Below are positions 1 through 20,286 of a stretch of 64,000 nt of DNA, piece after piece. Positions within the stretch are counted from its first letter, which is position 1. The number at the start of each line of letters is the position of its first letter. Position numbers and translations under genes: made by a program. Origin of the DNA: Oscillospiraceae bacterium (GTDB lineage: Bacteria > Bacillota > Clostridia > Saccharofermentanales > Saccharofermentanaceae); contig CACZML010000002.1 in the NCBI GenBank assembly GCA_902782235.1, forward strand, positions 1 through 64,000. Direction: 5' to 3'. The notes below the pieces were generated by a model, which was not told the origin of the DNA, did not search any database, and saw only the letters and a list, made by a program, of their open reading frames with translations.

Positions 1-764
1 GCAGAAACGCCCATTCTCTCGAGTGATCTTACTGTGTATACGAAGTGTTCTGTAAGTCCGCCGGTATCACCGTCGAAGATGATAGGCTTTGTCGTAACTT
101 CCATGATATCGTCGATAGTTCTGAATCTTGATGTCATGTCAACGAGCTCGATATCAGGCTTGCCCTTGGCCGTTGAATCGCAGAGAGATGAGATCCACAT
201 AGCATCGAACTGCTCGAGCTTGCCTTCGTGCTCAACGACGGTCTTCTCAACGATAAGACCTGTAAGGCCGCTGTGAGCCTCCATCGTCTTAACGATAGGT
301 GTCATCTTGATAAGCTGTCTTAAACGCTTACGGCGGTATTCAGGCATAGCGAGCTTTTCGCGAAGCTGCATGTCGATCTTCTTAACCTTCTCGTTATATG
401 TGTAAGGAATGTCGATAAGTTCACCGCCATATTCCTTAAGGAGTGCTACAACATTCTCGCGGATGGCACTCTCAGGACCTGTCTTCCAGTTATCACCATG
501 GATGACATAATCAGGCTTGATCTCAGCGATTACGTCGTTATACATTGAATCCTTCTGTACAACTACTTCATCAACTCCGTCGAGCTCCTTATAGAGCTTG
601 ATCCTCTCTTCAAGAGAGATCGTTGGGAATTTGTTGTATTTGATGCGGGCATCATCAGCAAGAGCACCGACAACAACGCGGCCGTACTCTTGTGCCTTCT
701 TGATGATGTTCAGATGTCCGTCATGGATAACATCAGTACAGAAACAGGTATAAACAGTTTTCAT
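1..764 (-). CDS. aepX: Phosphoenolpyruvate mutase (PEP phosphomutase) with N-terminal nucleotidyltransferase domain, 3' end outside window
   Basis: About 254 codons are present and the gene runs off the left edge. The first ~130 residues form a cytidylyltransferase-fold domain with the nucleotide-binding motif VIHDGH near residue 15 and HGDNWKTG near residue 95. From about residue 150 the PEP mutase/isocitrate lyase barrel begins, with the motif IIFDGDTGG that supplies the Mg-binding aspartates in this family. PEP mutase converts phosphoenolpyruvate to phosphonopyruvate, the first C-P bond-forming step of phosphonate synthesis. The catalytic EDKxxPK segment would lie outside the window. The start is an ATG behind AGGAG. 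It is the third gene of a phosphonate module attached to a capsule locus; phosphonopyruvate decarboxylase probably lies further left. The family assignment is firm; the role of the N-terminal domain is not known from sequence. Confidence 0.93.
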   Translation of the reverse strand, partial: MKTVYTCFCTDVIHDGHLNIIKKAQEYGRVVVGALADDARIKYNKFPTISLEERIKLYKELDGVDEVVVQKDSMYNDVIAEIKPDYVIHGDNWKTGPESAIRENVVALLKEYGGELIDIPYTYNEKVKKIDMQLREKLAMPEYRRKRLRQLIKMTPIVKTMEAHSGLTGLIVEKTVVEHEGKLEQFDAMWISSLCDSTAKGKPDIELVDMTSRFRTIDDIMEVTTKPIIFDGDTGGLTEHFVYTVRSLERMGVS

Positions 765-853: not shown

Positions 854-3145
854 TTACAATTCTGAATTGCCTAAGATCTTATGATACAGATAATCTATAG
901 ATTCCTTATCAAGTGCAATCGGATGATTCTTAAGTCTGTCCACGTTTACAGATGATGCGAGAAGCATATACTCAGCTTCATTTGCAGAAGGTGTGGACAA
1001 ATTAAGTCTCTTATATAACTCATCGAGATATGTGCAGACAAGCTTGGGGTCGTTGAACCCAAAAGTCTCAGCTATATAATCCAGAACTGACTTAAGATAA
1101 TCCTGTCCTCTCGGATCAATGCATTTATCCATATTTTCGAGCATCCACGGGAACAATGACTTTACGCAGAGCATAGCCGCATGACCGTGAGCAAGACCAT
1201 AAAGCGATGTGATCTTATAGCACATAGCATGTCCTGCTGTCGTCTGGGTTATATTGATCGCCTTGCCTGCCTTATAAGCTGCATTAAGCATCTCAAGGTT
1301 AGCAACCTTGTCATTAGCCAGATAACCGTCCAGGTTATCCAGAATAAGGTGGATTGCCTCACTCGCATACGCCTTGCTCTCATCAGTGCTGTTAACTGAC
1401 CAGATGGACTCGATCGAATGGCAGAGCGCATCGAACATGGTGCACTTTCTCTGATAGAGAGGCAGCGTCTTAAGAAGACTGCTGTCCATAAGAACAGTCT
1501 TAGGGATAATGCTCTCGTGGTTGATGGACTGCTTCGCACCGTTATAATAGATGACCGCGAACCTTGTAGCTTCAGAACCGGTTCCTGCCGTTGTGGGAAC
1601 AGCAAGGAACGGAATATCGTTCGGAACGATCTCCTGCTTAAGGAAGTTCTTATCAGGATCCATGTTGGAGAAAAGCTTAATGCACTTCGCAACGTCCATT
1701 GCAGAACCGCCGCCGATCGCGATAATTGCCTGGCATTTCTCCCTGTTAAATACGCTTACGCCCTCAACAACGGAATCGTATAAAGGATTAGGTGAGAAAT
1801 CGCTGAACGTAACGATCTTAACGCCAAGTCTCGGCTCAACGCTGTCCAGATATCTCTTGATGGGCATAACGTTTATAGAAGGACCGCAAACGAGCATAAT
1901 CTGTTTTGCACCGGTGGAAGTGATCCACTTATCGACCTTCTCATAGTTATTCTCAGCAGTGATTATTCCCTCAACGGATTTCCAGACATTAAGCTCAATA
2001 TCACGATTATCAGGATCAGTGAGCTCTCCGCTGAAAGTATTCTCAATAGATGCATATTTGGCATCAGCAGCATATGGGAACTCAACAAGTTTTCCGCCAT
2101 ATTCAGAAAGAAGGCTTATTACTTCGTCCCTGACCGGCTTCTGATAGCCTGTCTTCCAGTTATCACCGTGAACAACGATATCGGGCTTATATTTCCTGAT
2201 ATTGTCTGCGTAAGACAATGTATCCTGGTCTACTACTCTATAGACACCTGCGATGCTTGCAACGAGAGCTTTCCGCTCTGATCTTGGAACGATCGGCGCA
2301 CGCTTGTAGCTTGAGACTACCTCGTCGGAAAGAACGCCTACTGTGAGCTTTCCAAGCTTTGCTGCTTTCTTGATTATCGCAATATGTCCGCCGTGGATAA
2401 CGTTTGTTGAGAAAGACATGTAAACTGATCTGTTCTCGACTTCCTTAAGTCTTGCAGATACGACAGCAAGATCCTCAGGATTGTCGATCTCGGAGCAGAG
2501 TCTGTCCTTAACATCAAAAGCAGCGATATTGCACGCGCCATTAAGCTCATTAAGTGCATTCTCGGCGTAGCACTTGCGGTTGTCGCTCTCACAGAATTCG
2601 ATGATCTTATCAAGCCAGAGCTTCCAGTCTTCACGCTTAAGCTTATAGAGGGCCTGCGCTTCCATCGCGTCATCGAAGAAATTAATGCCGACCTTCTGTA
2701 CGAGGCCGTCCTTGATAACAGCCTTGAAATCCTTCTCCGGCAACGGGATCGTGGAAGATACCTTCATGCAGCTGGTAGGACAGTTCAGTATGTCTTCAAG
2801 CACAGAAGCCTCGAAAACAAGGTCTCCGTGCATGAGTACGATATCATCATCCAGGAATTCTCTTGCGCAGTAAATGCTGTAAATATAGTTGGTCTCAGCA
2901 TAAAGCGGGTTATTTACAAAGGTGAAATTCATCGGAAGGCCTAATGAGTGGCAGTAATCGACCAGAACTGTATCAAAATAGCCCGTAGTCATAACGACGT
3001 CTGTTACGCCACAGTCAAATAAGCACTTCAATTGTCTGGATAAAATGGTCTCTGTTCCTGAGATCTCGGTCATGCATTTCGGGTGTTCTGAAGTAAGCAC
3101 GCCCATTCTGTGGCCAAGACCGGAATTTAATATCAATGCTTTCAC
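854..3145 (-). CDS. Three-domain fusion: sugar-type NTP transferase, cytidylyltransferase-like domain, iron-containing alcohol dehydrogenase (phosphonoacetaldehyde reductase-like)
   Basis: This 763-residue protein has three parts. Residues 1-225 are a MobA/LicC-like nucleotidyltransferase (starts ALILNSGLGHRM; HPKCM is the usual lysine loop). Residues ~240-365 are a second nucleotidyltransferase of the HxGH type (VIHGGH near 253, HGDNWKTG near 325), closely like the N-terminus of the adjacent PEP mutase. Residues ~385-763 are a group III iron-type alcohol dehydrogenase (GTGSEAT near 525, GHAMCY near 637, GLAHGHAAM near 650, matching the metal-ligand histidine region). Such dehydrogenases reduce phosphonoacetaldehyde to 2-hydroxyethylphosphonate in known phosphonate pathways. 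I infer that one polypeptide makes and nucleotide-activates this product. The start is GTG behind AGAGG, and the gene has its own promoter after the upstream terminator. Which substrate each transferase uses is unknown. Confidence 0.85.
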   Translation of the reverse strand: MKALILNSGLGHRMGVLTSEHPKCMTEISGTETILSRQLKCLFDCGVTDVVMTTGYFDTVLVDYCHSLGLPMNFTFVNNPLYAETNYIYSIYCAREFLDDDIVLMHGDLVFEASVLEDILNCPTSCMKVSSTIPLPEKDFKAVIKDGLVQKVGINFFDDAMEAQALYKLKREDWKLWLDKIIEFCESDNRKCYAENALNELNGACNIAAFDVKDRLCSEIDNPEDLAVVSARLKEVENRSVYMSFSTNVIHGGHIAIIKKAAKLGKLTVGVLSDEVVSSYKRAPIVPRSERKALVASIAGVYRVVDQDTLSYADNIRKYKPDIVVHGDNWKTGYQKPVRDEVISLLSEYGGKLVEFPYAADAKYASIENTFSGELTDPDNRDIELNVWKSVEGIITAENNYEKVDKWITSTGAKQIMLVCGPSINVMPIKRYLDSVEPRLGVKIVTFSDFSPNPLYDSVVEGVSVFNREKCQAIIAIGGGSAMDVAKCIKLFSNMDPDKNFLKQEIVPNDIPFLAVPTTAGTGSEATRFAVIYYNGAKQSINHESIIPKTVLMDSSLLKTLPLYQRKCTMFDALCHSIESIWSVNSTDESKAYASEAIHLILDNLDGYLANDKVANLEMLNAAYKAGKAINITQTTAGHAMCYKITSLYGLAHGHAAMLCVKSLFPWMLENMDKCIDPRGQDYLKSVLDYIAETFGFNDPKLVCTYLDELYKRLNLSTPSANEAEYMLLASSVNVDRLKNHPIALDKESIDYLYHKILGNSEL

Positions 3146-3245: not shown

Positions 3246-5054
3246 TTAAGCTTTTTCGAGCACTGCTTTGAATGCTGCAACAAGCCTGTCGTTGTCTTCC
3301 TTATTTCTGATCGCGATCCTTATGTATTTGTCATCTCCGAGCTTGACCGAGAGGTCTCTGATAAGGATGTTGTAATCGAGAAGTTCCATGGAAAGCTTAT
3401 GAGCAGAATAGTTTGTAAGCTCGATCATGAGGAAGCTTGCCTGTGACGGGAAGATCTTAAGGCCGGGAATCTTCTCAAGTTCAGATCTGAATCTTCTTCT
3501 CTCCTGTCTGAACAAGACCTTGGCCTTGTCATAATCCTTCTCGTACTTCTCGTAGATCTGCATGTAGAATTCGGCAAATGAGTTGATGTTCCAGATGCAG
3601 ACATCCTTCTTCATCTTCGCGATTATTTCCTCATTTCCGGATGCGAGGACGCCCAGGCGGAGTCCCGGAACGCCGAACGACTTGGAGATGGACTTCATAA
3701 TGAACAGATGCTTATTTGCAGATACGATATCCTGAAGCATCAATGACCAGTCGTCTTCATCAGCAAAATCAATAAATGACTCGTCGAGAACGATATTTAC
3801 GTTATTTTCTTTTCCCCATTCAACGACCTTGAGCATGTCTTCTTTATGAATGAAATTTCCTGAAGGCATATCGGGATTTACGATTACCAGGTTCTCAACA
3901 GGATTTGCAGTAAAGAAATCCATGATGTCCTGTGCAGTATATGTATATCCCTGAGATGTTGTATCGAAGAAGACAGCCTGTCCCTTCGCGAATCTGTTGG
4001 GATATTCTTCGAACATAGGTCTGATGAAGCCGGTCCTGCCGTCAAGGAATCCCATAACGCTCTTAATAAGTTCGGAAGAGCCGTTGCCGATAACGATGTT
4101 TTCCTGACGGATATTGAAATTTCTGGAAGCCAGGAGCGCGTTTACCTTCATTCCGGAAGGATACTGGGTAAGAAGGCTCGGATAGCTTGCGATCATCTCT
4201 TCGACCATTCTCTTCGGCGGGAAATAAGGATTTACGAGATAGTAGTAATCCAAAAGGCCCGGGAATCTCCAATAACCGCCGTAAGTCTTGTGAAGACGGT
4301 CAAGCTTCTCTTCCTTGTCTTCACAGAATAAGATCTCAACGATCTTAAGATCTTCAATGTCATTTATCTCATACCAGAGCTTGCCGTTAAGCTTAGACAC
4401 CTTGATCTGAGGGTCATCGAGCATCGTAATTACTTTAAGATCATGCTGGAAGATATCACTGTTGCCCAAAGCGCTTGAATATGCCTCAAGGAGCGGAACA
4501 TATACCGAAGAAGAGAAATCCTTGCTGAACTTATAGACATTTACGGGCTTATAGTAATTGCCTGTCGATTCGAAATTGAGCCTTCTTTCAGAAGTAAAGC
4601 CGGTGATGTTATCCTCTCCGTCTACCGTGAGATAAGTTCCGTCCATCCAGTTCTCATACTTATCGACAAGAACGAGAGAATCTTTGGGATCTGCAATTAC
4701 ATCTTCGATTATTCCGTTTTCGAGGATAATGTCCGACTCAAAGAGCAGAGTGTCGTCTTCCGTCAGATAATCCTTGGCCAAAGCCAGCGAATAGATATTA
4801 TTAGTCTTATCGTAAATGGGGTTCTCAACAAAAACAACAGGGGTCTTGATATCAAGTGTTCCAACGTAATCGACCAGTCTCTTTCCTTCATAACCGACAA
4901 CGATTACGATCCTGTCAAGGTTCTGCTTCTCAAGCTGGTGAAGCATCCTGTCGATCAGGGAAACACCATTCACCTCTACCATGCACTTGGTATTGTTACG
5001 GGTGAGTTCCTTTAATCTCTTGCCCATACCTGCTGCTAAAATAACTGCCTGCAT
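3246..5054 (-). CDS. pntC: Bifunctional phosphonate cytidylyltransferase / 2-aminoethylphosphonate transaminase (PntC-AepT type)
   Basis: This 602-residue fusion starts with a nucleotidyltransferase (VILAAGMGKRL, residues 3-13, then NTKCMVEV) up to about residue 240. Residues ~265-602 form a fold-type I PLP aminotransferase. The PLP lysine is in SISKSFGVPG near residue 456, with VNPDMPSGN and VLDESF before it. Bacterial fusions of this type (known from Treponema denticola) transaminate phosphonoacetaldehyde to 2-aminoethylphosphonate and activate it as CMP-AEP. The aminotransferase half resembles histidinol-phosphate/threonine-phosphate decarboxylase enzymes, so on its own it could be misannotated. 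Context (PEP mutase, reductase fusion, capsule genes) supports the phosphonate role. It has its own promoter and terminator, and the ATG follows AGAGGAG. Confidence 0.85.
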   Translation of the reverse strand: MQAVILAAGMGKRLKELTRNNTKCMVEVNGVSLIDRMLHQLEKQNLDRIVIVVGYEGKRLVDYVGTLDIKTPVVFVENPIYDKTNNIYSLALAKDYLTEDDTLLFESDIILENGIIEDVIADPKDSLVLVDKYENWMDGTYLTVDGEDNITGFTSERRLNFESTGNYYKPVNVYKFSKDFSSSVYVPLLEAYSSALGNSDIFQHDLKVITMLDDPQIKVSKLNGKLWYEINDIEDLKIVEILFCEDKEEKLDRLHKTYGGYWRFPGLLDYYYLVNPYFPPKRMVEEMIASYPSLLTQYPSGMKVNALLASRNFNIRQENIVIGNGSSELIKSVMGFLDGRTGFIRPMFEEYPNRFAKGQAVFFDTTSQGYTYTAQDIMDFFTANPVENLVIVNPDMPSGNFIHKEDMLKVVEWGKENNVNIVLDESFIDFADEDDWSLMLQDIVSANKHLFIMKSISKSFGVPGLRLGVLASGNEEIIAKMKKDVCIWNINSFAEFYMQIYEKYEKDYDKAKVLFRQERRRFRSELEKIPGLKIFPSQASFLMIELTNYSAHKLSMELLDYNILIRDLSVKLGDDKYIRIAIRNKEDNDRLVAAFKAVLEKA

Positions 5055-5178: not shown

Positions 5179-6786
5179 TCAGCTGAGCTTTCCTGACAAT
5201 TCAGCCATGATCTCTGATTCAACAGCCATAGCATTCTCCCTGTTATCTGCTACCACGCTTACATATGTCTTGAGCTTGGGCTCAGTACCGGAAGGTCTTA
5301 CGACTACGGAAATATCCTTAGTGTAGAACTTAAGCACATCAGACTTCGGCAGACCGTTCAAGCCCTTGCTGTAATCTTCTGTCTTAATAACCTCCTGGCC
5401 GGCGATCGAATCAAGTCCCTGATGGAAAGATTCCATGATGGATCCCATCTTCTCCATTCCTGCAGAACCGGGGAATTCAAATGAATGAAGTGTATTTAAG
5501 CAATAACCGTATTCTTTATAAAGTTCATTAAGCTTATCGATAAGGCTTATGCCTCTTGTCTTATAGAAAGCAAACATCTCAGCGATAATGAATGCTGCAT
5601 TTACGGCGTCCTTATCCCTTACATAAGAGCCCGTAAGATATCCGTATGACTCTTCAAAGCCGCAGATATAGTCAGATTCCCTGCCCTTGGCTTCCATTCT
5701 TCCGATAACTTCTCCGATGAACTTAAAGCCGGTAAGAACGTTAACAGTCTCAACGCCGTAGTGGCTTGCGATCTTCTCAGCAAGATCCATCGTAACGATC
5801 GTCTTGATGAATACGGGATGTTCAGGCATCTTGTTATGCTTGATCCTCTGGCTGCAGATATAATCGAGCAGCAGGATGCCTACTTCGTTGCCTGAAAGCA
5901 GCCGGTAGTCACCGTCTGCTGTCTTTATAGCGATTCCGCATCTGTCAGCATCCGGGTCAGTCGCGAAAAGAAGATCCGCGCCTGTCTTCTCACAATACTG
6001 AAGTCCAAGCTCCATAGCTTCTCTGATCTCAGGATTCGGATAGGGGCATGTCGGGAAAGCTCGTGTAACAGGCTTTAATCCGGTACCGTTCAACGGTGAA
6101 TATACAATGGTTACGTTCTTATCGATCTCATCTCCGAAGAGGACTGACTGGCTCTTAACCGCTTCAATGAAGCCATCCATTACAGAATCAGGAATATATT
6201 CGATCTTGCCGTCAGCAACAGCTCCGTCAAAGTCAGTTGTCTTTACGTCAGCGAAGATATCCAGCTTCTCGATCTCAGAAAGGATCGTTGCAGCAGCTTC
6301 GGTTGTGATCTGGCACCCGTCAGCTCCGTAAACCTTATAACCGTTATATTTAGCGGGGTTATGTGATGCTGTTATCATAATGCCCTGCGAAGCCTTGAGA
6401 TCTCTTATTGCAAAGCTTACGGTCGGAACCGGATTTAATGTAGGCCAGATCCAAACTTTAAGACCGTTTGCAGCAAATACTGAAGCAGCAACCTTGGCAA
6501 AAAGATCAGATTTGATACGGCTGTCATAGCCGACAACAACGCCAGGCTGACCTTCAACAGTCTTTAAAAGATAATCAGAAAGGCCCTGGCTCGCCTTTGC
6601 TACAACGTAGATATTCATACGGTTGGTACCGGCGCCGATCGTGCCGCGGAGTCCGCCCGTACCGAATGCAAGGTTCCTGTAGAATGCATCCTCAACCGCA
6701 ACATCGTCCATACCCTTAAGTTCGGCATTGATCTCACTGTCTGTTGCAAGCTTTAACCAGCGTTCATATTCAGCTTTGTAATCCAT
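5179..6786 (-). CDS. Phosphoglucomutase/phosphomannomutase (alpha-D-phosphohexomutase family)
   Basis: The 535-residue protein has all four hallmark segments of the phosphohexomutase family: the phosphoserine loop TASHNPAKYNGYK near residue 138, the Mg-binding ATDPDADRCG near 260, the sugar loop GFEESYGYLTG near 372, and the phosphate-binding RPSGTEPK near 500. It interconverts hexose-6- and hexose-1-phosphates. Next to manA and manC it could supply mannose-1-phosphate for GDP-mannose; length and lineage fit a phosphoglucomutase of the PgcA type equally well. Its ATG sits right after the stop of the upstream gene, whose last codons carry the Shine-Dalgarno CAGGAG. It is the last gene of the gmd operon. 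Confidence 0.9.
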   Translation of the reverse strand: MDYKAEYERWLKLATDSEINAELKGMDDVAVEDAFYRNLAFGTGGLRGTIGAGTNRMNIYVVAKASQGLSDYLLKTVEGQPGVVVGYDSRIKSDLFAKVAASVFAANGLKVWIWPTLNPVPTVSFAIRDLKASQGIMITASHNPAKYNGYKVYGADGCQITTEAAATILSEIEKLDIFADVKTTDFDGAVADGKIEYIPDSVMDGFIEAVKSQSVLFGDEIDKNVTIVYSPLNGTGLKPVTRAFPTCPYPNPEIREAMELGLQYCEKTGADLLFATDPDADRCGIAIKTADGDYRLLSGNEVGILLLDYICSQRIKHNKMPEHPVFIKTIVTMDLAEKIASHYGVETVNVLTGFKFIGEVIGRMEAKGRESDYICGFEESYGYLTGSYVRDKDAVNAAFIIAEMFAFYKTRGISLIDKLNELYKEYGYCLNTLHSFEFPGSAGMEKMGSIMESFHQGLDSIAGQEVIKTEDYSKGLNGLPKSDVLKFYTKDISVVVRPSGTEPKLKTYVSVVADNRENAMAVESEIMAELSGKLS

Positions 6787-6788
6787 CT

Positions 6789-7826
6789 TTATAACTCCTG
6801 TTTTGTATTGTTTTCAATTATATCTGCGATCTTCGAATATTCATTCTCATAGATCTTATCTGACCAGCCGAAACTGTCCATCTTCTCAATTACTTTGCCG
6901 ATATCCTTAAGTTCATCGACCTTAATGGAAATCGCAAGCTTTCTGTCCTTTAACTGGTTAATGGTCATGGTATCTTCAGCTGTATCGTCACGCTCAAGCA
7001 ACGCAGTTCTTACACCCGCCGTAACAAACTCTGATACTGTAGACCAGCCTGCCTTTGCGATGCAGTAATCTGCCGCAGCGACATAGTCCTGAGTATTGTT
7101 TGTCTTCGGATCAAGATACTCAACATTATCGCCGATAAGCTTAAGCGCCCTTGTTACGATAAATGAATAAGGGAGTTTGCTAACGTCGATATCAAAATCA
7201 AATCCTGAATTGCTCGCACCGCAAGTAATAACAACGATAGGCTTATCGTGCGCTTCTCTTATTGCTTTTACCTTCTCAGGATCAAAAGGTCTGGCAGAAA
7301 AGCCCACTTCGATGCCTTCGCCGAAGAACCGGCGCGATGATTCATTTGCCAGATCGAAATATATGACCTTATCAGCCTGGTGGTAAGCATCTTTGTAGAC
7401 ATTTACGAGTTCTTCCGGAACAAAGGGTTCATACTGCTCGATCCATGTAAAGTTTGTCATGAGAAAACTTCTGATGCCCTTCTTCTTTGCAGCGATAACA
7501 GCCCACGGGCAGATATCGATGACATAAGCATCAGCATCCACGCTTTCTTCTATAAGGCGTTCCCACTTTGAGACATGTTCCTTTATCTTAGCAACAGTTG
7601 CGTCAGTGTCGATGATAAGCGAACCGGGAATTACAACAAGGCCGGCGTCAGTATTCTCGACGATTATCTCAGCTTTGTGGTCCAGATAGTCATCTGTCAC
7701 TTCAGCCTGCTGTTTTCCTGTGACAACAGTTACTTTATGACCTCTTCTGATGAGCTCTCTCATAACGGGAAGCTCTCTCATAAGATGGCCGAACCCGTGA
7801 TCGGTAATATAATAAGCAAATTTCAT
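6789..7826 (-). CDS. Glycosyltransferase-like protein, GT28/MurG-type fold
   Basis: About 345 residues. The N-terminus (YYITDHGFGHLMRELPV) is the glycine/histidine loop of GT-B enzymes related to MurG and to the N-terminal part of sugar kinases with glycosyltransferase-like folds. The C-terminal half has ITCGASNSGFDF and CIAKAGWSTVSEFVTAG, the donor-binding pattern of GT28 proteins. It probably transfers an activated sugar during assembly of the local glycan; donor and acceptor are unknown. An in-frame TTG lies 9 bases upstream, but the ATG at 7826, just after the manA stop, is the simpler start. It lies inside the gmd-fcl-manC-manA-pgm operon. Confidence 0.7.
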   Translation of the reverse strand: MKFAYYITDHGFGHLMRELPVMRELIRRGHKVTVVTGKQQAEVTDDYLDHKAEIIVENTDAGLVVIPGSLIIDTDATVAKIKEHVSKWERLIEESVDADAYVIDICPWAVIAAKKKGIRSFLMTNFTWIEQYEPFVPEELVNVYKDAYHQADKVIYFDLANESSRRFFGEGIEVGFSARPFDPEKVKAIREAHDKPIVVITCGASNSGFDFDIDVSKLPYSFIVTRALKLIGDNVEYLDPKTNNTQDYVAAADYCIAKAGWSTVSEFVTAGVRTALLERDDTAEDTMTINQLKDRKLAISIKVDELKDIGKVIEKMDSFGWSDKIYENEYSKIADIIENNTKQEL

Positions 7827-7828
7827 AA

Positions 7829-8803
7829 TCAACAACTTACATCCAGGATCTGTGCCTGACCGTGGAGCTTCATTTCGATGCTGCTCGCAGGAACAAAGAT
7901 GCAGTCTCCTTTAAAGAAATTGAGCATAAAGCCGTCAGCTGCTATTATTCCGCAACCGTCAACGCAGAGCAATGCATGGAACGAGTTTTCTTCAGTCTTG
8001 TAAGATGCAAGTTCCCTGTTAACCTCTGTGTTAAGAAGGAGTCTCTCGACCTGGAAATACTTGCACCGGCATAAAAGCTCACTTGCACATCCTGACTTAT
8101 ATCTTAAGACTCTCATAGGCTGGCGAGGAGCTGCGGAAGCCTTAAGTTTAGCTACTTCCAGGCCCTTACCGATATTCAGTTCTCTCTTTTCGCCGTTCTT
8201 GTCGACACGGCCATAGTCGTAAAGACGGTATGTGACGTTGGAATTTTCCTGGATCTCAGCGACAAGGCATCCGGAACCGATTGCATGAACCGTGCCGGAT
8301 TCAATGAAGAAAAGATCGTTCTTCTTTACCGGCACATGATTCAAGAGATTGCCTACCGTACCGTCATCTATTGCCTGCTTTACCTCATCAGCTTCAACAT
8401 CACGGTTAAAGCCATAGATGAGCGAGGCATCCTTCTTGGCATCAAGAACATACCAGAGTTCTGTCTTGCCAAGCTGGCCCTCATTTGCAAGGCTGTATTC
8501 ATCGTCGGGATGAACCTGTACAGAAAGGTCCTTATTTGCATCGATGAGCTTTATAAGGATCGGGAAATGACCGTTTGCAACCGTGGAAGCATGTGTTCCG
8601 ATATATTCAGGATGAGCTTTTAAGACCTCTGTTAATGTCTCTCCCGTAGTGAGCACAGAGCATCCGTCAGGATGCGTGGAACATACCCAAGCCTCTGCGA
8701 AAGGATCGGCATCCATGCCGAACTTGAAGTCATCATTAAGCCTTGAACCACCCCAGAGGTAGTCCTTGGCAGCAGGCTTTAACAAGAACGGCTTGTTATT
8801 CAT
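7829..8803 (-). CDS. manA: Mannose-6-phosphate isomerase, class I
   Basis: The 324-residue cupin protein contains the conserved metal site QVHPDDEYS near residue 97 and the family motif GKTELWYVLDA near 113. It interconverts fructose-6-phosphate and mannose-6-phosphate, the entry to GDP-mannose. The length is that of the short Firmicutes ManA proteins. The ATG follows AGGAGAG. It lies between manC and the GT28-like gene in one operon, giving a complete route from fructose-6-phosphate to GDP-fucose within the operon. Confidence 0.95.
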   Translation of the reverse strand: MNNKPFLLKPAAKDYLWGGSRLNDDFKFGMDADPFAEAWVCSTHPDGCSVLTTGETLTEVLKAHPEYIGTHASTVANGHFPILIKLIDANKDLSVQVHPDDEYSLANEGQLGKTELWYVLDAKKDASLIYGFNRDVEADEVKQAIDDGTVGNLLNHVPVKKNDLFFIESGTVHAIGSGCLVAEIQENSNVTYRLYDYGRVDKNGEKRELNIGKGLEVAKLKASAAPRQPMRVLRYKSGCASELLCRCKYFQVERLLLNTEVNRELASYKTEENSFHALLCVDGCGIIAADGFMLNFFKGDCIFVPASSIEMKLHGQAQILDVSC

Positions 8804-8816
8804 CTGGTCTCTCCTG

Positions 8817-10130
8817 TTACAGTTCGTACTTATGCTTGTCGGCTACGTTGATATCTTCGCCTAACTGGACTTCGATAAGCTGGATTCCTTCATCACCGGC
8901 AAAAACAGTGTGCTTGCAGCCGGCAGCCATTGTAACGACGTCTCCGGGCTTTACGAGCTGTTCCATTCCATCAACAACCGTACGTCCGGAACCGGCAATA
9001 ACAGTCCACACTTCATCACGCTTATCGTGGCTGTGATAGTTCATCTTATTACCAGGATTAAGTGTTACCTTAACCGTCATGGATGACTCTTCGACATCAA
9101 GGACTCTGTATGAACCCCAGCTCTTCTCAGCAAACATTACGCGCTGGACGATATCATCGACAAATGGCTTAATATAGGAGCTTTGCTCCTTATCGGATAC
9201 CAGGATTCCCTCAGGGCTTGCAGAGATAACCATATCCTTAAGTCCCATTCCAATGATCGGGATACCAAGCTCATTAATTATGTTTACATTGGAGCACTTT
9301 TCGTTAAGCGTGCCGTCTCCGATGATCGGATCTGTCATCGCTTCAGTCAGCGTGTTCCATGTACCAAGATCTTTCCATTCACCGTTATAACGGAGAACGT
9401 CTATTGAAGTCTCTGCCTCAACTACAGCATAGTCGAATGAGATCTTCTTCAAGTTCGCATAGTTCGAAAAGAGCTCGTCATAGTTATCGGTACCTAAAAG
9501 CTCCTTACTCTTATCGAGAACGTAAGAAAGCTTGTAAGCAAATACGCCGCCGTTCCAGAGAGCACCGCCGTCGATATATTCCTGGGCCTTCTCGGCTGTG
9601 GGCTTTTCTGTAAAGCCCCATCCGTCAGTACCGTCATCGTTCTTCTTAGGCTTGATGTAGCCATACTTCTCTGAAGGATAAGTCGGCTCTATGCCCATAA
9701 GCGTAAGATTCTTCTCACCCTTCGAAGCAGCTTCATAGAGCCTGTTTACGCACTCGAAATAAGAATCCTCAACATAAGGATCTACCGGGCATACGACGAC
9801 CGCCTCATCTCTCGGAACATTCATTACACAGTTAAGATATGCCGTTGCGAGTGCAATAGCTGCAAATGTATCCCTTCTGCAGGGCTCAACAGATACACCG
9901 ATATCCAGGCCGAGCTGGTTATGGATAGCGGACACCTGTGATTTGGATGTGGCAACAGTAACAACAGCATCAGGGTCGACAGACTTGATCTGGCCGTAGA
10001 TCCTCTGGACCATTGATTCCAGTTCGCCGTTCTCTTTTTTGAATATCTTGATGAACTGCTTTGAGCGGATGTCATTGGATAAAGGCCAGAGACGCTTTCC
10101 GGATCCGCCTGATAGAAGGATTATGTTCAT
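8817..10130 (-). CDS. manC: Mannose-1-phosphate guanylyltransferase
   Basis: The 437-residue protein starts with the nucleotidyltransferase signature LLSGGSGKRLWPLSN and SKQF. The domain runs to about residue 290 and includes FTEKP near 173 and NGGVF near 193. The last ~110 residues are a cupin domain (NYHSHDKRDEVWTV) as in bifunctional ManC/AlgA proteins; whether isomerase activity is retained is unclear because a separate ManA follows. It makes GDP-mannose from GTP and mannose-1-phosphate for the adjacent Gmd and Fcl. The ATG follows AAAGG. Confidence 0.95.
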   Translation of the reverse strand: MNIILLSGGSGKRLWPLSNDIRSKQFIKIFKKENGELESMVQRIYGQIKSVDPDAVVTVATSKSQVSAIHNQLGLDIGVSVEPCRRDTFAAIALATAYLNCVMNVPRDEAVVVCPVDPYVEDSYFECVNRLYEAASKGEKNLTLMGIEPTYPSEKYGYIKPKKNDDGTDGWGFTEKPTAEKAQEYIDGGALWNGGVFAYKLSYVLDKSKELLGTDNYDELFSNYANLKKISFDYAVVEAETSIDVLRYNGEWKDLGTWNTLTEAMTDPIIGDGTLNEKCSNVNIINELGIPIIGMGLKDMVISASPEGILVSDKEQSSYIKPFVDDIVQRVMFAEKSWGSYRVLDVEESSMTVKVTLNPGNKMNYHSHDKRDEVWTVIAGSGRTVVDGMEQLVKPGDVVTMAAGCKHTVFAGDEGIQLIEVQLGEDINVADKHKYEL

Positions 10131-10133
10131 AAA

Positions 10134-11078
10134 TTACCTTTCTGCTCTCATGGGGTTTTCGAGGAAGTCCTTATAAGCAAGTCTGATGCCGTCTTCAAGC
10201 TCAGTCTTGTATGTCCAGCCGAGCTTTGTTGCTTTCGAGACATCAAGAAGCTTTCTGGGAGTTCCGTTGGGCTTTGTCGTATCCCACTCGATACGGCCTT
10301 CATATCCGATTACTTTTGCAACGAGCTCTGTAAGTTCCTTGATGGTAAGCTCCTTGCCTGTTCCGGCATTTACTGTCTCATCACCGCTGTAGTTATTCAT
10401 GAGGAATACGCAGAGGTTAGCAAGATCGTCTACATATAAGAATTCACGCAAAGGTGAACCGTCACCCCAGCATGTTACGGATTCCTTGCCCTCGACCTTT
10501 GCCTCATGGAAACGGCGGATAAGAGCCGGAAGAACATGGCTGTGCTCCGGATGGTAATTATCGTTAGGTCCGTAAAGATTTGTAGGCATTACGGAAATAT
10601 AGTCAGTACCGTACTGGCCGTTAAGATATTCACAGTATTTAAGACCTGAGATCTTAGCGAGTGCATAAGCTTCATTGGTCTGCTCAAGTGAAGATGTGAG
10701 AAGGCATGACTCAGGCATAGGCTGGGGAGCCATTCTCGGATAGATGCATGAACTGCCTAAGAATTCGAGTTTCTTGCATCCGTTCTTCCATGCGCTGTGA
10801 ATGACGTTCATCTCGAGGATCATGTTCTCATACATGAAGTCAGCCTTAGCCTTGGCATTTCCCATGATGCCGCCGACCTTTGCGGCAGCGAGGAAAACAT
10901 ACTCGGGCTTCTCCTCTTCGAAAAATTTCTCGACCTGATCCTGCCTGGTAAGATCAAGTTCTTTATGTGTTCTTAAAACGAGATTGTGATATCCCTGACG
11001 CTCAAGCTCTCTTACGATAGCTGAGCCGACCATGCCTCTGTGTCCGGCAACGTAGATCTTAGCATTTTTGTCCATCAT
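10134..11078 (-). CDS. fcl: GDP-L-fucose synthase
   Basis: The 314-residue SDR enzyme has an NAD(P)-binding loop GHRGMVGSAIVREL near residue 12, the family-typical LGSSCIYPR near 107, and the YALAK catalytic pair near 138. It epimerises and reduces GDP-4-keto-6-deoxymannose to GDP-L-fucose. Two ATG codons stand in tandem; translation is likely coupled to gmd, whose stop lies next to the start. Gmd directly upstream supplies its substrate. Confidence 0.96.
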   Translation of the reverse strand: MMDKNAKIYVAGHRGMVGSAIVRELERQGYHNLVLRTHKELDLTRQDQVEKFFEEEKPEYVFLAAAKVGGIMGNAKAKADFMYENMILEMNVIHSAWKNGCKKLEFLGSSCIYPRMAPQPMPESCLLTSSLEQTNEAYALAKISGLKYCEYLNGQYGTDYISVMPTNLYGPNDNYHPEHSHVLPALIRRFHEAKVEGKESVTCWGDGSPLREFLYVDDLANLCVFLMNNYSGDETVNAGTGKELTIKELTELVAKVIGYEGRIEWDTTKPNGTPRKLLDVSKATKLGWTYKTELEDGIRLAYKDFLENPMRAER

Positions 11079-11079
11079 A

Positions 11080-12123
11080 TCAGAGCGCCTCTTTCATTGC
11101 TTTCTGCTGCTTAGCGAGCATTCTGTCGTGCTTAGCCATGATCTCAATGAGTTCCTCATATGTTGTCTTCTGAGGATTCCAGCCGAGAACCGTCTTAGCC
11201 TTTGTAGGATCGCCCCAGAGGTTATCAACGTCTGTAGGTCTGAACCATGCAGGATTTACGCAAACGAGCATCTTGCCTGTCTTAACGTCATAGCCCTTCT
11301 CGTCAACGCCTTCGCCCTCCCAACGGATCTCAATGCCGTTAGCTTTGAAAGCCTTCTCTGTGAAGTCACGTACTGTGTGCTGCTCGCCTGTTGCGATAAC
11401 GAAATCGTCAGGTGTCTCCTGCTGCATGATGAGCCACATGCACTCAACATAATCCTTTGCATAACCCCAGTCACGGAGGCTGTCCATATTGCCGAGCTCC
11501 AAGTGATCCTGAAGTCCTTCAGCGATCCTGCCTGCAGCTAAAGTGATCTTTCTTGTAACGAAGTTCTCACCGCGTCTTTCAGACTCATGGTTAAAGAGGA
11601 TGCCGTTTACAGCGAACATGCCGTATGCCTCACGGTATTCCTTGATCATCCAGAAGCCGTACTGCTTTGCAACAGCATAAGGGCTGTAAGGATGGAAAGG
11701 TGTTGTCTCTCTCTGGGGAACTTCCTCTACCTTGCCGAAGAGTTCTGATGTGCTTGCCTGATAGATCTTGCATGTCTTCTCAAGGCCTAACATTCTCATA
11801 GCTTCGAGAAGTCTTAATACGCCGATGGCATCAACATCACCGGAATACTCAGGAACATCGAAGCTTACCTGAACGTGGCTCTGGGCTGCTAAGTTATAGA
11901 TCTCATCAGGCATAACTTCCTTGATAATGCGGATAAGTGAAGTCGAGTCTGTAAGATCGCCGTCGTGGAGCTTTATCTTGTCCAAAATATGCTCAATACG
12001 GCCTGTGTTAGCAATGCTTGCACGGCGTGTGATGCCATGAACTTCATAACCCTTCTCGAGCAGGAACTCAGCCAAATAGGAACCGTCCTGACCTGTGATA
12101 CCTGTGATCAATGCCTTTTTCAT
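11080..12123 (-). CDS. gmd: GDP-mannose 4,6-dehydratase
   Basis: The 347-residue SDR enzyme begins [20 protein letters not shown], the hallmark of Gmd. It also has [12 protein letters not shown] near residue 78, STSELFGKV near 125, and the YxxxK pair in [10 protein letters not shown] near 149. [16 protein letters not shown] near 182 is characteristic of this enzyme. It converts GDP-mannose to GDP-4-keto-6-deoxy-mannose. It is the first gene after a terminator and a clear sigma-A promoter; the ATG follows GGAGGAG. Confidence 0.97.
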
Positions 12124-13134: not shown

Positions 13135-14367
13135 TTATCTTGCCTTGAGCCTAAGCTTTTCCTTTAACAACCTAAGTGTATCCTGTTTATCCAGATGCTT
13201 GTACTTAACTGCCAGAGCCAGTGAGTATGCGAGGAAAATGTAATTGTTATCCAGGAAGGATTCGCAGAGCATTACCACAAACAGACAGAATAGAAGAACA
13301 AGGATCAGCTGTGATTTTTTATTCTCCTTATCAGATGCCGTAATGAATACCATAAGGAGGAACACGAGATATCCGGCAAGAAGGATAATGCCGCCCTGGA
13401 TCAATATATCGAAGAACAGATTGTGGGCATTTCTCATGATGCCGTTCCACTTGATGATCCAGCCCGAATCAAAGTTGCCGTAACCTGCCAAAGGGTGTCT
13501 GGCGATCATCTTAATGCACATTTCCCAGATATATGTCCTTCCGGAAAAAGTAATATCTTTATGAAGGACATCCTGGATGATATTCCGGAGCGGCGGGATC
13601 ATGCCGGCATAAACAATAAGCATCGTGCAGCCGAAATATGCTACGAGGAGCGTTTTCATATTTATGAGTTTTGATCTGAGCTTCGATCTATGAATAAATA
13701 CAACATAACAGAGCATGACAAAGAAGCTTCCGATTCCTGTACCTGACATCGTAAGAAGATTAGTAGCGCCTCCAATGACAAGGGATATGACACGAAGGAC
13801 TCTGTTTATCTTCTTATCGGGCATCATGAAAGATGTCGCGATGGCGATAAGCACAGGCAGCGACAGACGGTTATCTACTTCCAGGAAGTTGACACGGTCA
13901 AGCTGTTTAAAAGCCATGTCTTCTGAATAAGTAAGCAAAGATGATATGCCTTCAGGCTTTAGGATCAGAAGCACGAGATTTACAGCGAGAAGGATATTTA
14001 AGAACCATGCCGTTACCTCGATCAGGCAGTTATCTTTCTTTCTGAGTTCGTAGGATACGATCAAAAAAACTGCTGCAAGATGCACACCCGAACGGATATA
14101 AAGCTTATAGTCACCGCCGTGATATACAACAAGCAATAATCCTGCCAGCAGATAGATAACAGCACCTAAAGTAATTATATTTTTCAGATTCTTAAAACTG
14201 CATGTTGCCGAGAGTATGATCGCAAAGAGCAAAACAACGCATTGCACCGGGAAAAGCTTGTTGTAAAACGACGATATGACCGGAATAAACTCAAAAGCCC
14301 TTGGCGTAAAAAAGACCAATCCAAAGAACAGTAAACCGATAATTTCTAAGAATCTGCTTTTTCTCAT
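13135..14367 (-). CDS. O-antigen ligase / Wzy-like polymerase membrane protein
   Basis: About 410 residues with roughly ten to twelve hydrophobic segments. A long loop near residues 260-310 carries the pattern of the Wzy/WaaL family (FSGRTYIWEM and PLAGYGNFDSGW, followed by NAHNLFFDILIQGG). Such proteins polymerise repeat units or ligate glycans on the outer face of the membrane. As the only such protein here it is the likely polymerase. I chose ATG 14367, two bases after the GT2 stop; a GTG three codons earlier is possible but overlaps the GT2 gene. Confidence 0.82.
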   Translation of the reverse strand: MRKSRFLEIIGLLFFGLVFFTPRAFEFIPVISSFYNKLFPVQCVVLLFAIILSATCSFKNLKNIITLGAVIYLLAGLLLVVYHGGDYKLYIRSGVHLAAVFLIVSYELRKKDNCLIEVTAWFLNILLAVNLVLLILKPEGISSLLTYSEDMAFKQLDRVNFLEVDNRLSLPVLIAIATSFMMPDKKINRVLRVISLVIGGATNLLTMSGTGIGSFFVMLCYVVFIHRSKLRSKLINMKTLLVAYFGCTMLIVYAGMIPPLRNIIQDVLHKDITFSGRTYIWEMCIKMIARHPLAGYGNFDSGWIIKWNGIMRNAHNLFFDILIQGGIILLAGYLVFLLMVFITASDKENKKSQLILVLLFCLFVVMLCESFLDNNYIFLAYSLALAVKYKHLDKQDTLRLLKEKLRLKAR

Positions 14368-14369
14368 GC

Positions 14370-15122
14370 TTACCACTCTTTATTTATCATATGCTTTAAG
14401 TTCCAGATAAAAGCCTTTACTTTGATAAGCGGGCTCTTTTTCTCCAGGCCGTTACTGATCTTGACGTTGTAATTATCAAGGATAGTCCTGTAGTAAACTT
14501 TATTGGAAGTTCCCTCAACAGAATAAACACAGACAACCCTTTCCTTATAAAAAAACTTATATCCCTTCAGATAAGCCTTAAGGAAGAAGTCATAATCAGC
14601 ACAGATCTTGAACTGTCCGTCAAACTTTATTTCGGAGAATACTCTCTTTCTCGTAAAAGTCGCCTGATGGCAGAAGAACTTATAATCACGAAGGAGTTTA
14701 ATGTCTTTATCTGCTTTATCAAGCTTTTTCAGATCACCTTTTACCCTGTAACTGTCACCATAGACCACATCATAGCCGGAATAATCACAGTCTCCAAAGA
14801 TATCCTTTAATACCTCAGGATCCGAGAACCTGTCATCGGCATTCATAAAGATGATCCATTCACCGGATGCCAGCCCTGCGCCCTTGTTCATCGCATCGTA
14901 GATACCGTTATCAGGCTCGGAAACATGCTTATATTCAATGCCTTTTGCGCTGAATGCGTCATCAAAACCTGCGATGATACCGTTTGTGTTATCTTTTGAT
15001 TTTCCGTCTACGATAATATATTCAAAGTCAGTAAAAGACTGCGACAGAACTGACTCTATCGTATCTCTTATTGTTTTCTCTGCATTGAAGCAGACTGTAA
15101 TGACACTGACTTTAAAACTCAT
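14370..15122 (-). CDS. Glycosyltransferase family 2
   Basis: The 250-residue GT-A enzyme has VSVITVCFNAEKTI at the N-terminus, EYIIVDGKSKD near residue 33 and the metal-binding region IFMNADDRF near 93 (the DxD position reads ADD). Proteins of this type add a single sugar to lipid-linked precursors. ATG 15122 follows AAGGATTGAAT; an upstream TTG is less likely. It sits in the assembly operon with short spacers on both sides. Confidence 0.88.
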   Translation of the reverse strand: MSFKVSVITVCFNAEKTIRDTIESVLSQSFTDFEYIIVDGKSKDNTNGIIAGFDDAFSAKGIEYKHVSEPDNGIYDAMNKGAGLASGEWIIFMNADDRFSDPEVLKDIFGDCDYSGYDVVYGDSYRVKGDLKKLDKADKDIKLLRDYKFFCHQATFTRKRVFSEIKFDGQFKICADYDFFLKAYLKGYKFFYKERVVCVYSVEGTSNKVYYRTILDNYNVKISNGLEKKSPLIKVKAFIWNLKHMINKEW

Positions 15123-15136
15123 ATTCAATCCTTTGT

Positions 15137-16046
15137 TCAGATCTCGAAAGAAGACTTACCGGGAAGGATCTTCTCGAAGCTCCGGATCAGCTGATCCCTG
15201 GTCTTCTCAAAATCATTGCCCTTATATTCGTCGTTTATTACGAGAACCTTCTTCTTACCTGATTCAATGACTTCACATATTTTAGTCACATCGTCATCAT
15301 TAATCTGGGTATATCCGAAGCATTGCTGAGACTTTACTGTGAAGTTTCCTTCCATGAGATGCCAATATCTCATAAGCCAGATGGAAATATCCTCTTTAGA
15401 TCTGAATCTCTTGTTCTGTGTTTCCTTAACAACAGCAGGCTCTGCTTCCCAGACCTTCTCGAAATCACTTTTAGTAAAGGCGGTCGGAACATGGTAGTCA
15501 CGAATGCCTGGAAATGTCGTCCATGGCTTTGCAAGCTTAAGCGTACGCAGTAATGATTTAGGGTCTTTTAAGCTGTACCATTTCGAGCGGTTAGCAGAAA
15601 TAACCTGCTGTTTATTAAAGTGCCTGTTGATAGCAAGCACATTATTAAGCCTTATATATTCGAAATCATTTGAAGGCGTAAGGCAGTCCAAAGCCGCATA
15701 ATCACAAGGGACTCCGTTAACGAAAAAATCTTCGGGCGTCATTGGAGCTACGGGGAAAAAGTCGTCATTGAATAAAACAAAATTGTTACTGAGACCTTTT
15801 ATCTTATGAATACCTATTCAGCCATTCAGGCTTCTGACCGCAGGTAACGAAATAAACCTTGCGGACCCACGGGGCAAACTTCTCAACACCCCTGAACCAA
15901 TAGCGCATGAGATCCCAGTCACGATATCTGTTCTCACCTGAATTATCCCCGGATGTAATGTTTCCAAGGAATTTAGCGCGTGTATTCTGCCATTCCGGAT
16001 CGTTTCCGTCGACCCATGTAACTACAAAATCGATATCGTTAGCCAT
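15137..16046 (-). pseudogene. Stealth-family capsular polysaccharide phosphotransferase, broken by an internal deletion
   Basis: Two open frames encode parts of one Stealth protein. The upstream part (16046-15804) has the start signature [14 protein letters not shown] and conserved region 2 ([13 protein letters not shown] to [11 protein letters not shown]), then a stop. The downstream part continues in another frame from about 15806 with [19 protein letters not shown], then MTPEDFF and a C-terminal region to 15137. About 30 residues that normally lie between these blocks are missing and the frame is lost, so this is a deletion with frameshift, not a point indel. Intact relatives transfer sugar-1-phosphates to build phosphodiester-linked capsules. 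An assembly error is possible. The gene overlaps the upstream GT4 gene by 8 bases. Confidence 0.88.
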
Positions 16047-17184
16047 TTTCTACCGCTCTCTTATATAAATCTTCAAGCTTTCTTATATTAGTACTTATAT
16101 CGAAACCTTTTTCAATAAAGAATTCTCTCCGGTCACATCTTACATTGTATTCTTTCATCATGGCTTCAGTCACGTCAGCCCAGACAGAAGGGCTCGCGCT
16201 AAGGCTTAAGGACTTAACTTTCTCCGTTAATAATGCAACTTCAGATATAGTATCTGATACAACACATATCAGGTCGGCTGCCTGAGCTTCAAGCAAAGCT
16301 ATTGGCAGGCCCTCATAAAGAGACGGGAAAAGGAAGATATCAGATGCCGTAAGAAGACCGGGAATATCATTTCTGTTGCCCAGGAAAAGAACATCTTCCC
16401 TAAGCCCAAGCTCTTCCGCTTTTGCCTTTATTTTGTCCTGTTCTTCACCGGTACCAACAAGAACAAGCTTGTAAGAATCATCTCGCTTATGAAGTTCATT
16501 GAATACATCAATGACCATGCCGTGATTCTTCTGGGTACGGAACTGGCCGACATGAATGATCACTTTCCTTCCATCAAGGCCTAATTCCTTCCGCACGGCA
16601 TTTCTAGTGTCTTCATCATAAGCATATGCCGACGAATCGATCGAATTATTGAGGAGAAGGTATTTATCACCATTGCATATCTTCTCACCGAAGAGCCACT
16701 TGCCAGCTTCAGGAGAACATGCAACGAAATATCCGGCATAGCGTCTTAAAAGGTGCTTCTCATAGATCAGATAACACTTATGAAGATGATCCTTTAACCC
16801 CTTGGGATTATCAAGCTGGTCAGTGTTATGGCTGTGTGCAATAAGTGCCTTTACGCCATGCTTTTTCGCTGCCTTAAGAGCCTCTTCACCGATCGCGTCC
16901 ATATGAGTATGTACAATGTCGTACTTGTGGTCTCTGAAGAACTCATCAAGCTCCCTGTTATGAAGCTTTCTGTCTACGCCTCTTGCCGTTATCTGATAAA
17001 ACCCGCATCCTAATGATTCAAGATATTTCTTATCATCAGACTGATCAGGTGTCTTATCGAAAATAAGGAAATCAATATGGAATCTGTCACGATCGATATT
17101 CTTCACGATATTGATCATGACATTCTCTGTACCGCCCTTTTTTAACGGACAACCGAAAACAAAAAGTATCCTTAAAGGGTTCAT
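16039..17184 (-). CDS. Glycosyltransferase family 4 (GT-B)
   Basis: The 381-residue protein starts [20 protein letters not shown], the acceptor-side loop of GT4 enzymes. It has the donor-binding pattern in [15 protein letters not shown] near residue 195 and the EX7E motif in [17 protein letters not shown] near 292. It retains configuration and uses a nucleotide sugar not predictable from sequence. Its start overlaps the previous gene's stop by 4 bases and its end overlaps the Stealth remnant, showing a tightly packed operon. Confidence 0.9.
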
Positions 17185-18365
17185 ACAAGTTCCTCGTAAA
17201 GCTTCATATATGCCTCGTATGTCTTATCCTTCGGGAACCTGAAAGAGCTTACCTCTATCCTCTTACCTGCATCACAGATCTCTCCGATCTTCAGGGCAAC
17301 ATTCTTAAGGTCATGAGGTTCAACGATATATCCGTCATTCTCCGTCATGGTCTCAGGAATTCCCGTACAGTTATATGCGACAACAGGTGTTCCGCACGCA
17401 AGAGATTCAACATTAGGAAGACCGAATGTCTCTTCCACGCTCGCATTAAAAAAGACATTGGAAGCGCTGTATATCCCGGCAAGTTCCTTGGGGCCATCTG
17501 TCCTTCCGATACCGATCATGTTGTCCGGAAGCGATGCCTTTTGCTTATCATTAAGTCCTACAAGAACGATCTTATAGCGTTCATCTAAGATCTTCGATAA
17601 TTCAATAAAATCTGCAAGACCTTTTCTAGTGTCCCAGGTGCTCGCAACGCCTAAAACGATACGCTTATCACCCACATTATATTTGATCCTGAAATTACCA
17701 GAAGAAGGCTTAAAGACGGATGTATCTATGCCGTTATAGATAACTCTTGAGGGAATATCTTTTAAGAATGAAGCCTTTAACTCGTTATCAAGCCACTTCG
17801 AGACACAAACCAGGTGAAGGTTCTTAACGGAATGGAACATCTGATTCTTTTCACTGAAATTCTTAGAGGAATTATCCTTGAAGATACTTGCCGGATAAGC
17901 TTTCTTCTGAGGGCATTTGCTGCATCCGTGGGTCTTCCATTTCTCACATCCTGCCATACTGTAATAGCAGCAGTGACCTGTATACGCCCAGCAGTCGTGA
18001 AGAGTCCAGACAACTGGCTTACCGGCATCCTTAAGATAGTCAAACAACATCGGGACATTTATATAATATCCATGAAGATTATGCAGATGAATGATATCCG
18101 GATCGTATTCTTTGATCTGCTTAATGAGTTTCTCCGTAGCACCTTTTGAATAATGGCCTGCTTTGTCAGTCAGCCTGGTAAAAACTCCGTCAGTATAGAC
18201 CGATAAAGGATTTCCTATCTTGAAAGACGGAACATCACCAGGGACTTCATTTCTTGCAAAAGCAACAGCGCCCTCATGCCCGCGCGCTCTTAATGTGCGG
18301 TAAATATCAACGGCTATCTTGCCGGTGCTCAAATTTCCGAATGTGTTTATCTGCAGTACTTTCAC
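17181..18365 (-). CDS. Glycosyltransferase family 4, WcaC-like
   Basis: The 394-residue protein has KVLQINTFGNLSTGKIA at the N-terminus and the cysteine-rich stretch typical of colanic-acid-type GT4 enzymes (WTLHDCWAYTGHCCYY near residue 120, then GCSKCPQKKAYP). The EX7E motif is in SVEETFGLPNVESLACG near 310. It overlaps the next GT4 gene by 4 bases (ATGA), indicating coupled translation. Donor sugar unknown. Confidence 0.88.
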   Translation of the reverse strand: MKVLQINTFGNLSTGKIAVDIYRTLRARGHEGAVAFARNEVPGDVPSFKIGNPLSVYTDGVFTRLTDKAGHYSKGATEKLIKQIKEYDPDIIHLHNLHGYYINVPMLFDYLKDAGKPVVWTLHDCWAYTGHCCYYSMAGCEKWKTHGCSKCPQKKAYPASIFKDNSSKNFSEKNQMFHSVKNLHLVCVSKWLDNELKASFLKDIPSRVIYNGIDTSVFKPSSGNFRIKYNVGDKRIVLGVASTWDTRKGLADFIELSKILDERYKIVLVGLNDKQKASLPDNMIGIGRTDGPKELAGIYSASNVFFNASVEETFGLPNVESLACGTPVVAYNCTGIPETMTENDGYIVEPHDLKNVALKIGEICDAGKRIEVSSFRFPKDKTYEAYMKLYEELV

Positions 18366-18385
18366 GCTGTATTCACCTGGATTAA

Positions 18386-20244: not shown

Positions 20245-20286
20245 GACCCCTCCTAAACGCTCCTTAAATACCCAAATCCTATATGC

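Follow-up and report, generated by a model that had tools for sequence, protein, structure and literature searches.

A MobA-HxGH-dehydrogenase fusion of a gut bacterium as a predicted one-protein route from phosphonoacetaldehyde to CMP-2-hydroxyethylphosphonate

Introduction

PntC-AepT (Tde1415) from Treponema denticola, described by Rice et al. 2019 (PMC6697681), joins an N-terminal MobA/LicC-type nucleotidyltransferase to an enzyme that forms, from phosphonoacetaldehyde, the phosphonate that is then activated, and its genes lie in surface-glycan clusters. Within T. denticola PntC, Glu104 and Glu196 are placed at the AEP amine (PMC6697681). Fom1 of fosfomycin biosynthesis is a CyTase-PepM fusion whose HxGH cytidylyltransferase domain was crystallized with the CMP-activated form of 2-hydroxyethylphosphonate (CMP-HEP; 5X3D). 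MobA-HxGH-PepM triple fusions, represented by 42 Ppm proteins with both PF12804 and PF01467, are likewise already known (PMC6697681). Phosphonyl-tailoring after C-P bond formation was termed enigmatic in 2019, with only the AEP branch having characterized activating enzymes (PMC6697681), and in marine phosphonate, HEP esters on polysaccharides are a major component (PMC9381506). Our search of open-licence papers found no surface-tailoring enzyme that activates HEP.

Here, we analyzed a window of 64,000 nucleotides from a gut bacterium (Oscillospiraceae bacterium, GCA_902782235.1, contig CACZML010000002.1, positions 1 to 64,000, forward strand), which encodes a fusion protein resembling PntC-AepT in its N-terminal MobA/LicC-type domain and its surface-glycan setting. 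It differs in carrying an iron-type alcohol dehydrogenase (Fe-ADH), expected to yield HEP, instead of the aminotransferase that yields AEP, in having an additional HxGH domain, and in replacing Glu104 with His. Its HxGH domain belongs to the same family as that of Fom1, but the Fom1 domain is fused to PepM in an antibiotic pathway, whereas the window domain has MobA and Fe-ADH as its fusion partners and is encoded in a polysaccharide locus. The triple fusions share both nucleotidyltransferase domains and their order, and at most loci the two genes that follow encode a reductase and phosphonopyruvate decarboxylase (Ppd), but their C-terminal partner is PepM rather than Fe-ADH. The sulfoacetaldehyde reductase BkTauF (6JKO, PMC6616044) and the phosphonoacetaldehyde reductase PhpC are iron-type dehydrogenases like the window domain, but both are stand-alone enzymes. 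Full-text literature searches, which covered open-licence papers, returned no description of a PntC-reductase fusion; the first-pass annotation of this DNA likewise named no known reductase counterpart of PntC-AepT.

Results

The fusion gene (854..3145, minus strand) is an open reading frame with a GTG start that encodes 763 amino acids. Residues 1-232 (2450..3145) form a MobA/PntC-like nucleotidyltransferase domain of the MobA/LicC type (PF12804), residues 237-375 (2021..2437) form an HxGH cytidylyltransferase domain resembling the Fom1 CyTase, and residues 386-763 (857..1990) form an iron-type alcohol dehydrogenase (PF00465/PF25137), a probable phosphonoacetaldehyde reductase. The Pfam search placed NTP_transf_3 at residues 3-121, CTP_transf_like at 248-336, and Fe-ADH with ADH_Fe_C at 394-670; each hit exceeded its curated cut-off. 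All three domains are in frame in 12 full-length relatives with 60-93% identity, and alignments of 13 and 15 sequences revealed invariant residues in the MobA domain (G9, G11, R13, K23, D108, and D221), the HxGH domain (H251 and H254), and the dehydrogenase (GGGS at 478-481, D572, H576, H639, and H653). The first-pass annotation had described three such domains with intact motifs in one polypeptide and had proposed a Pfam search; the search, the relatives, and the alignments all bear this description out. Including the window, the full-length fusion occurs in 16 genomes of the same family (61-93% identity), and one more copy is cut by a contig end. Scanning public genomes identified 17 loci with the MobA-HxGH-FeADH architecture (L076-L092), labelled Saccharofermentans, Ruminococcaceae, Clostridiales, and Lachnospiraceae, with ruminants as the main source. 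Since 12 in-frame relatives and 17 public loci share the architecture, the fusion is not a frameshift, a chimera, or a product of chance, and its presence in independent genomes also rules out an assembly artefact.

A phmmer search of the HxGH domain against solved structures gave 5X3D, the Fom1 cytidylyltransferase domain in its HEP-CMP-bound form according to the entry title, as the best match (E 9.5e-39). The whole-protein model had low confidence for this middle domain, which was then folded alone with 39 sequences (pLDDT 90). The resulting model superimposed on 5X3D with Z 21.1 and rmsd 1.3 Å over 126 residues at 50% identity, and the next entry reached Z 16.4. The branching point of Fom1 was not resolved in a tree of HxGH domains containing it and an outgroup, and percentage identity was used in its place: HxGH domains of the modules are 45-58% identical to Fom1, compared with 32-41% for those fused directly to PepM (AEP-type). 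With the HxGH fold and its nearest similarity to the CMP-HEP-bound Fom1 domain, the window domain groups with the Fom1 type. Because of the structure match and this identity gap, we assign the Fom1-like HxGH, on sequence and predicted fold, to the putative HEP module. The HEP-type HxGH is absent from two genomes with the module (G052 and G082), and three others have only MobA and Fe-ADH together (G012, G056, and G081); since it is lacking in 5 of the 43 genomes, this domain is not indispensable.

In the MobA domain, the position of PntC Glu104 is occupied by His (His106) in all 87 distinct module sequences. The comparison set has Glu there in all 13 AEP-type domains and Ser in the one remaining row of 14, a nucleotidyltransferase joined to a choline-kinase-like domain; the PntC-AepT encoded in the window itself keeps Glu. 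The position of Glu196 appears still to be Glu (E195), in a part of the alignment that is less secure. G9, G11, R13, and K23 are present in 87/87 module domains, and none of the catalytic residues Arg, Lys, and Asp has changed. The GXG(T/S)R...PK motif is recognizable; at its T/S position several relatives have Ser, whereas the window protein has His. Module MobA domains are ~26-32% identical to those of PntC-AepT. Because Glu104 is replaced by His106, the module domain is PntC-like but would not be classed as an AEP cytidylyltransferase, and His106 together with intact catalytic residues fits an acceptor without an amine. Glu or His at PntC position 104 would offer a one-residue signature predicting AEP or HEP.

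The dehydrogenase domain retains the GGGS and PTTAGTGSE motifs and the D/H/H/H metal ligands (D572, H576, H639, and H653), and its GGGSxxDxxK pattern with these ligands identifies it as an iron-type alcohol dehydrogenase. Across 84 relatives, the NAD and metal motifs are almost fully conserved, and the ligands vary only at position 576 (H in 75, Q in 9), where BkTauF also has Q. A fold search with the whole fusion model returned dehydrogenases only, and BkTauF and AdhE tied for the best match (Z 41.4 and rmsd 2.7 over 358 residues for BkTauF). By sequence, too, BkTauF ranked first among solved structures (4.1e-29), at ~23% identity; sulfoacetaldehyde is the sulfonate analogue of phosphonoacetaldehyde. 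Thr257 and Phe265, which are essential for BkTauF activity (PMC6616044), align with T635 and Y643 of the fusion, both invariant in the 84 relatives, so that the essential Thr is kept and Phe is replaced by Tyr. The NCBIfam equivalog for phosphonate Fe-ADH (TIGR03405, PsrA) scored 144 bits, far below its cut-off of 423.7. NCBIfam scores did not discriminate a substrate, as ErcA, PsrA, lactaldehyde reductase, and other families scored alike, all under their cut-offs.

The same domains occur as an operon, MobA-HxGH-PepM followed by Fe-ADH and Ppd, in about 50 related Clostridia loci, an arrangement commoner than the fusion; Clostridium symbiosum ATCC 14940 and Ruminococcus flavefaciens 007c are among the cultured strains that have it. 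Among the 55 triple-fusion loci with at least one downstream gene called, Fe-ADH is immediately next in 49 and Ppd follows in 42, so that at these 42 loci the un-fused homologue is encoded with PepM and Ppd, as expected of a phosphonoacetaldehyde reductase. PepM converts PEP to phosphonopyruvate, from which Ppd forms phosphonoacetaldehyde. Because Fe-ADH is the sole enzyme encoded between the two, the simplest reading is that it reduces phosphonoacetaldehyde to HEP, and the gene order reads as a putative route from PEP to HEP. Other arrangements are MobA-HxGH followed by a separate Fe-ADH (L065 and L066), MobA and Fe-ADH with HxGH-PepM (L067 and L068), and MobA and Fe-ADH only (L069 and L070). 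This range indicates that the window protein is a rearrangement in which Fe-ADH has replaced PepM at the C-terminus. Six partner changes are needed on the tree of the shared MobA-HxGH part, and a single origin of the Fe-ADH fusions was rejected by the AU test (p 0.001); the partner domain has therefore been exchanged more than once. Separately, no Fe-ADH lies nearby at the MobA-HxGH-PepM loci L124, L129, L132, L139, and L155, whose activators may use a substrate, or give a product, other than HEP.

The first-pass annotation had proposed a co-occurrence survey and held that the architecture should not occur away from PEP mutase genes. PepM was found in 43/43 family genomes with the MobA/Fe-ADH module, compared with 90/115 in the family background (hypergeometric 1.2e-6, a value that overstates the evidence as the genomes are related). 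Among 22 tested genomes with the fusion or MobA/Fe-ADH variants, all 22 carried a PepM 79-97% identical to the fragment on contig C53 of the window's genome, and 20 carried Ppd. At 8 of the 17 fusion loci PepM lay outside the fetched flanks, which weakens the expected proximity, but every genome tested encodes PepM elsewhere.

Adjoining the fusion in the window, on the same strand, are an HxGH-PepM gene (3..764, PF13714) that runs into the contig end and, on the other side, a PntC-AepT fusion of the AEP branch (3246..5054), recognized by domain search as a MobA domain with a class I/II aminotransferase, whose MobA part matches Tde-PntC (6pd1). A set comprising a winged-helix (MarR-like)-MobA fusion, a class V aminotransferase, and HxGH-PepM occurs at L048 (9236-10132), with equivalents at L049, L050, and L076-L081; it apparently serves as the AEP branch next to the HEP fusion, in place of the window-type PntC-AepT. 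At L104 (1845-3611), a nucleotidyltransferase fused to a choline/ethanolamine-kinase-like domain is encoded next to the HEP operon and a MobA gene of the winged-helix kind. The window's genome has a second HxGH-PepM gene at the end of contig C53 and Ppd on contig C73. The C53 paralogue reads EDKKGLKKNS at the EDKxxxxxNS motif, and the window copy ends before the motif. These two HxGH-PepM genes are distinct and each is cut by a contig end (window 3-764, at the start of contig C2 of genome G000; L003:14912-15880, at the end of C53). Most relatives have one copy, and the pair possibly reflects either an additional locus or an assembly that mixes strains.

Upstream of these genes on the minus strand, 5179..12123 holds sugar-nucleotide genes for PGM/PMM, a GT28-like protein, and enzymes that we take, from sequence and established knowledge rather than domain search, to be ManA, ManC, GDP-fucose synthase (FCL), and GDP-mannose dehydratase (GMD). 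Similar genes adjoin the fusion in relatives. They are followed by polysaccharide genes (13135..21729, minus strand) for a Wzy-type ligase, glycosyltransferases, and a bacterial sugar transferase, a probable acceptor-glycan cluster. A protein of 785-790 amino acids, without a Pfam or NCBIfam match, lies between the sugar-nucleotide genes and the fusion at L078 (3534-5906), and also in L048, L049, and L059; the window does not encode it.

Discussion

We estimate a probability of roughly 0.8 that this single protein would reduce phosphonoacetaldehyde to HEP and then add CMP, making it the HEP counterpart of PntC-AepT. In the reactions that we infer, PepM, encoded by the next gene, and Ppd, encoded on another contig, would make phosphonoacetaldehyde; the C-terminal Fe-ADH domain would reduce it with NAD(P)H to HEP; and the N-terminal cytidylyltransferase part would combine HEP with CTP to give CMP-HEP. 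The Fom1-like HxGH domain is the best-supported candidate for this last step, and MobA would act as another HEP-type cytidylyltransferase, or take the principal role where a genome lacks the HxGH copy. The first-pass annotation had suggested the same sequence of reductase, HEP, and CMP-HEP in one protein, and the gene order at 42 loci, the Fom1 structure, and the loss of the amine-binding Glu now favor it. The fusion and the commoner three-gene operon thereby name testable enzymes for HEP activation.

The labour that we infer for the two nucleotidyltransferases could be divided otherwise, as the two folds may either both make CMP-HEP or serve different acceptors. Only the reductase and HxGH might act on HEP, with MobA activating another acceptor (a phosphonate, choline-phosphate, or sugar-phosphate), so that the protein would supply two activated building blocks. 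Two unrelated cytidylyltransferase folds would be redundant if both made CMP-HEP, and MobA, distant from its PntC-AepT counterparts, has no characterized close relative. However, MobA is inseparable from Fe-ADH, adjoining or fused, even where the HEP-type HxGH is missing (L067-L070), which argues that both belong to the same pathway branch and makes separate acceptors unlikely. MobA and Fe-ADH form the core in all 43 module genomes, as would also be expected if MobA were the real HEP cytidylyltransferase and HxGH a vestigial or allosteric remnant of an ancestral triple fusion. We consider such a remnant unlikely as well, because the HxGH domain keeps its H251xGH254 and HGD motifs, stays 60-96% identical to the window copy across its relatives, and is close to the CMP-HEP-bound Fom1 domain.

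A role of the fusion unrelated to phosphonates, with the dehydrogenase reducing a different aldehyde from sugar or polyol metabolism, would accommodate the eight fusion loci without PepM in their flanks, the location in polysaccharide clusters, and the Fe-ADH family scores that do not discriminate a substrate. It is highly improbable given that Fe-ADH lies between PepM and Ppd at 42 loci, that PepM occurs in every module genome, and that the partner HxGH domain resembles a HEP enzyme.

If the reading of the fusion as a HEP reductase and cytidylyltransferase is true, CMP-HEP would serve as a donor for decorating cell-surface sugars, with a LicD- or CDP-glycerol-type transferase placing HEP on a surface glycan. 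LicD and CDP-glycerol glycerophosphotransferase families use CDP- or CMP-activated donors, and CMP-HEP would therefore fit as a donor. No LicD or Glyphos_transf domain was found among the window genes searched; other contigs of the same genome carry four LicD and one Glyphos_transf. In L067 a LicD gene separates MobA from Fe-ADH, and in L051 one adjoins the fusion; genes resembling CDP-glycerol glycerophosphotransferases are found in the vicinity of the L061, L069, and L129 modules. It is conceivable, but quite doubtful, that the two cytidylyltransferase domains differ in function and that the adjoining CDP-glycerol-type enzymes polymerize CMP-HEP into a repeating HEP ester, a polymer that would be the phosphonate counterpart of teichoic acid.

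Two further kinds of gene were observed beside these modules. At L069 (15290-15889), a cytidylate-kinase-like gene, which perhaps recycles CMP, is clustered with MobA, Fe-ADH, and a CDP-glycerol-type transferase. Fusions of a YidC-like domain (PF02096) with a sulfatase-superfamily domain (PF00884), of ~850-880 amino acids, adjoin PntC-AepT and the HEP module (L061:11428-14016, L061:14035-16665, and L069:12709-15255). We know of no described fusion of this kind, and these proteins could be membrane phosphonate transferases.
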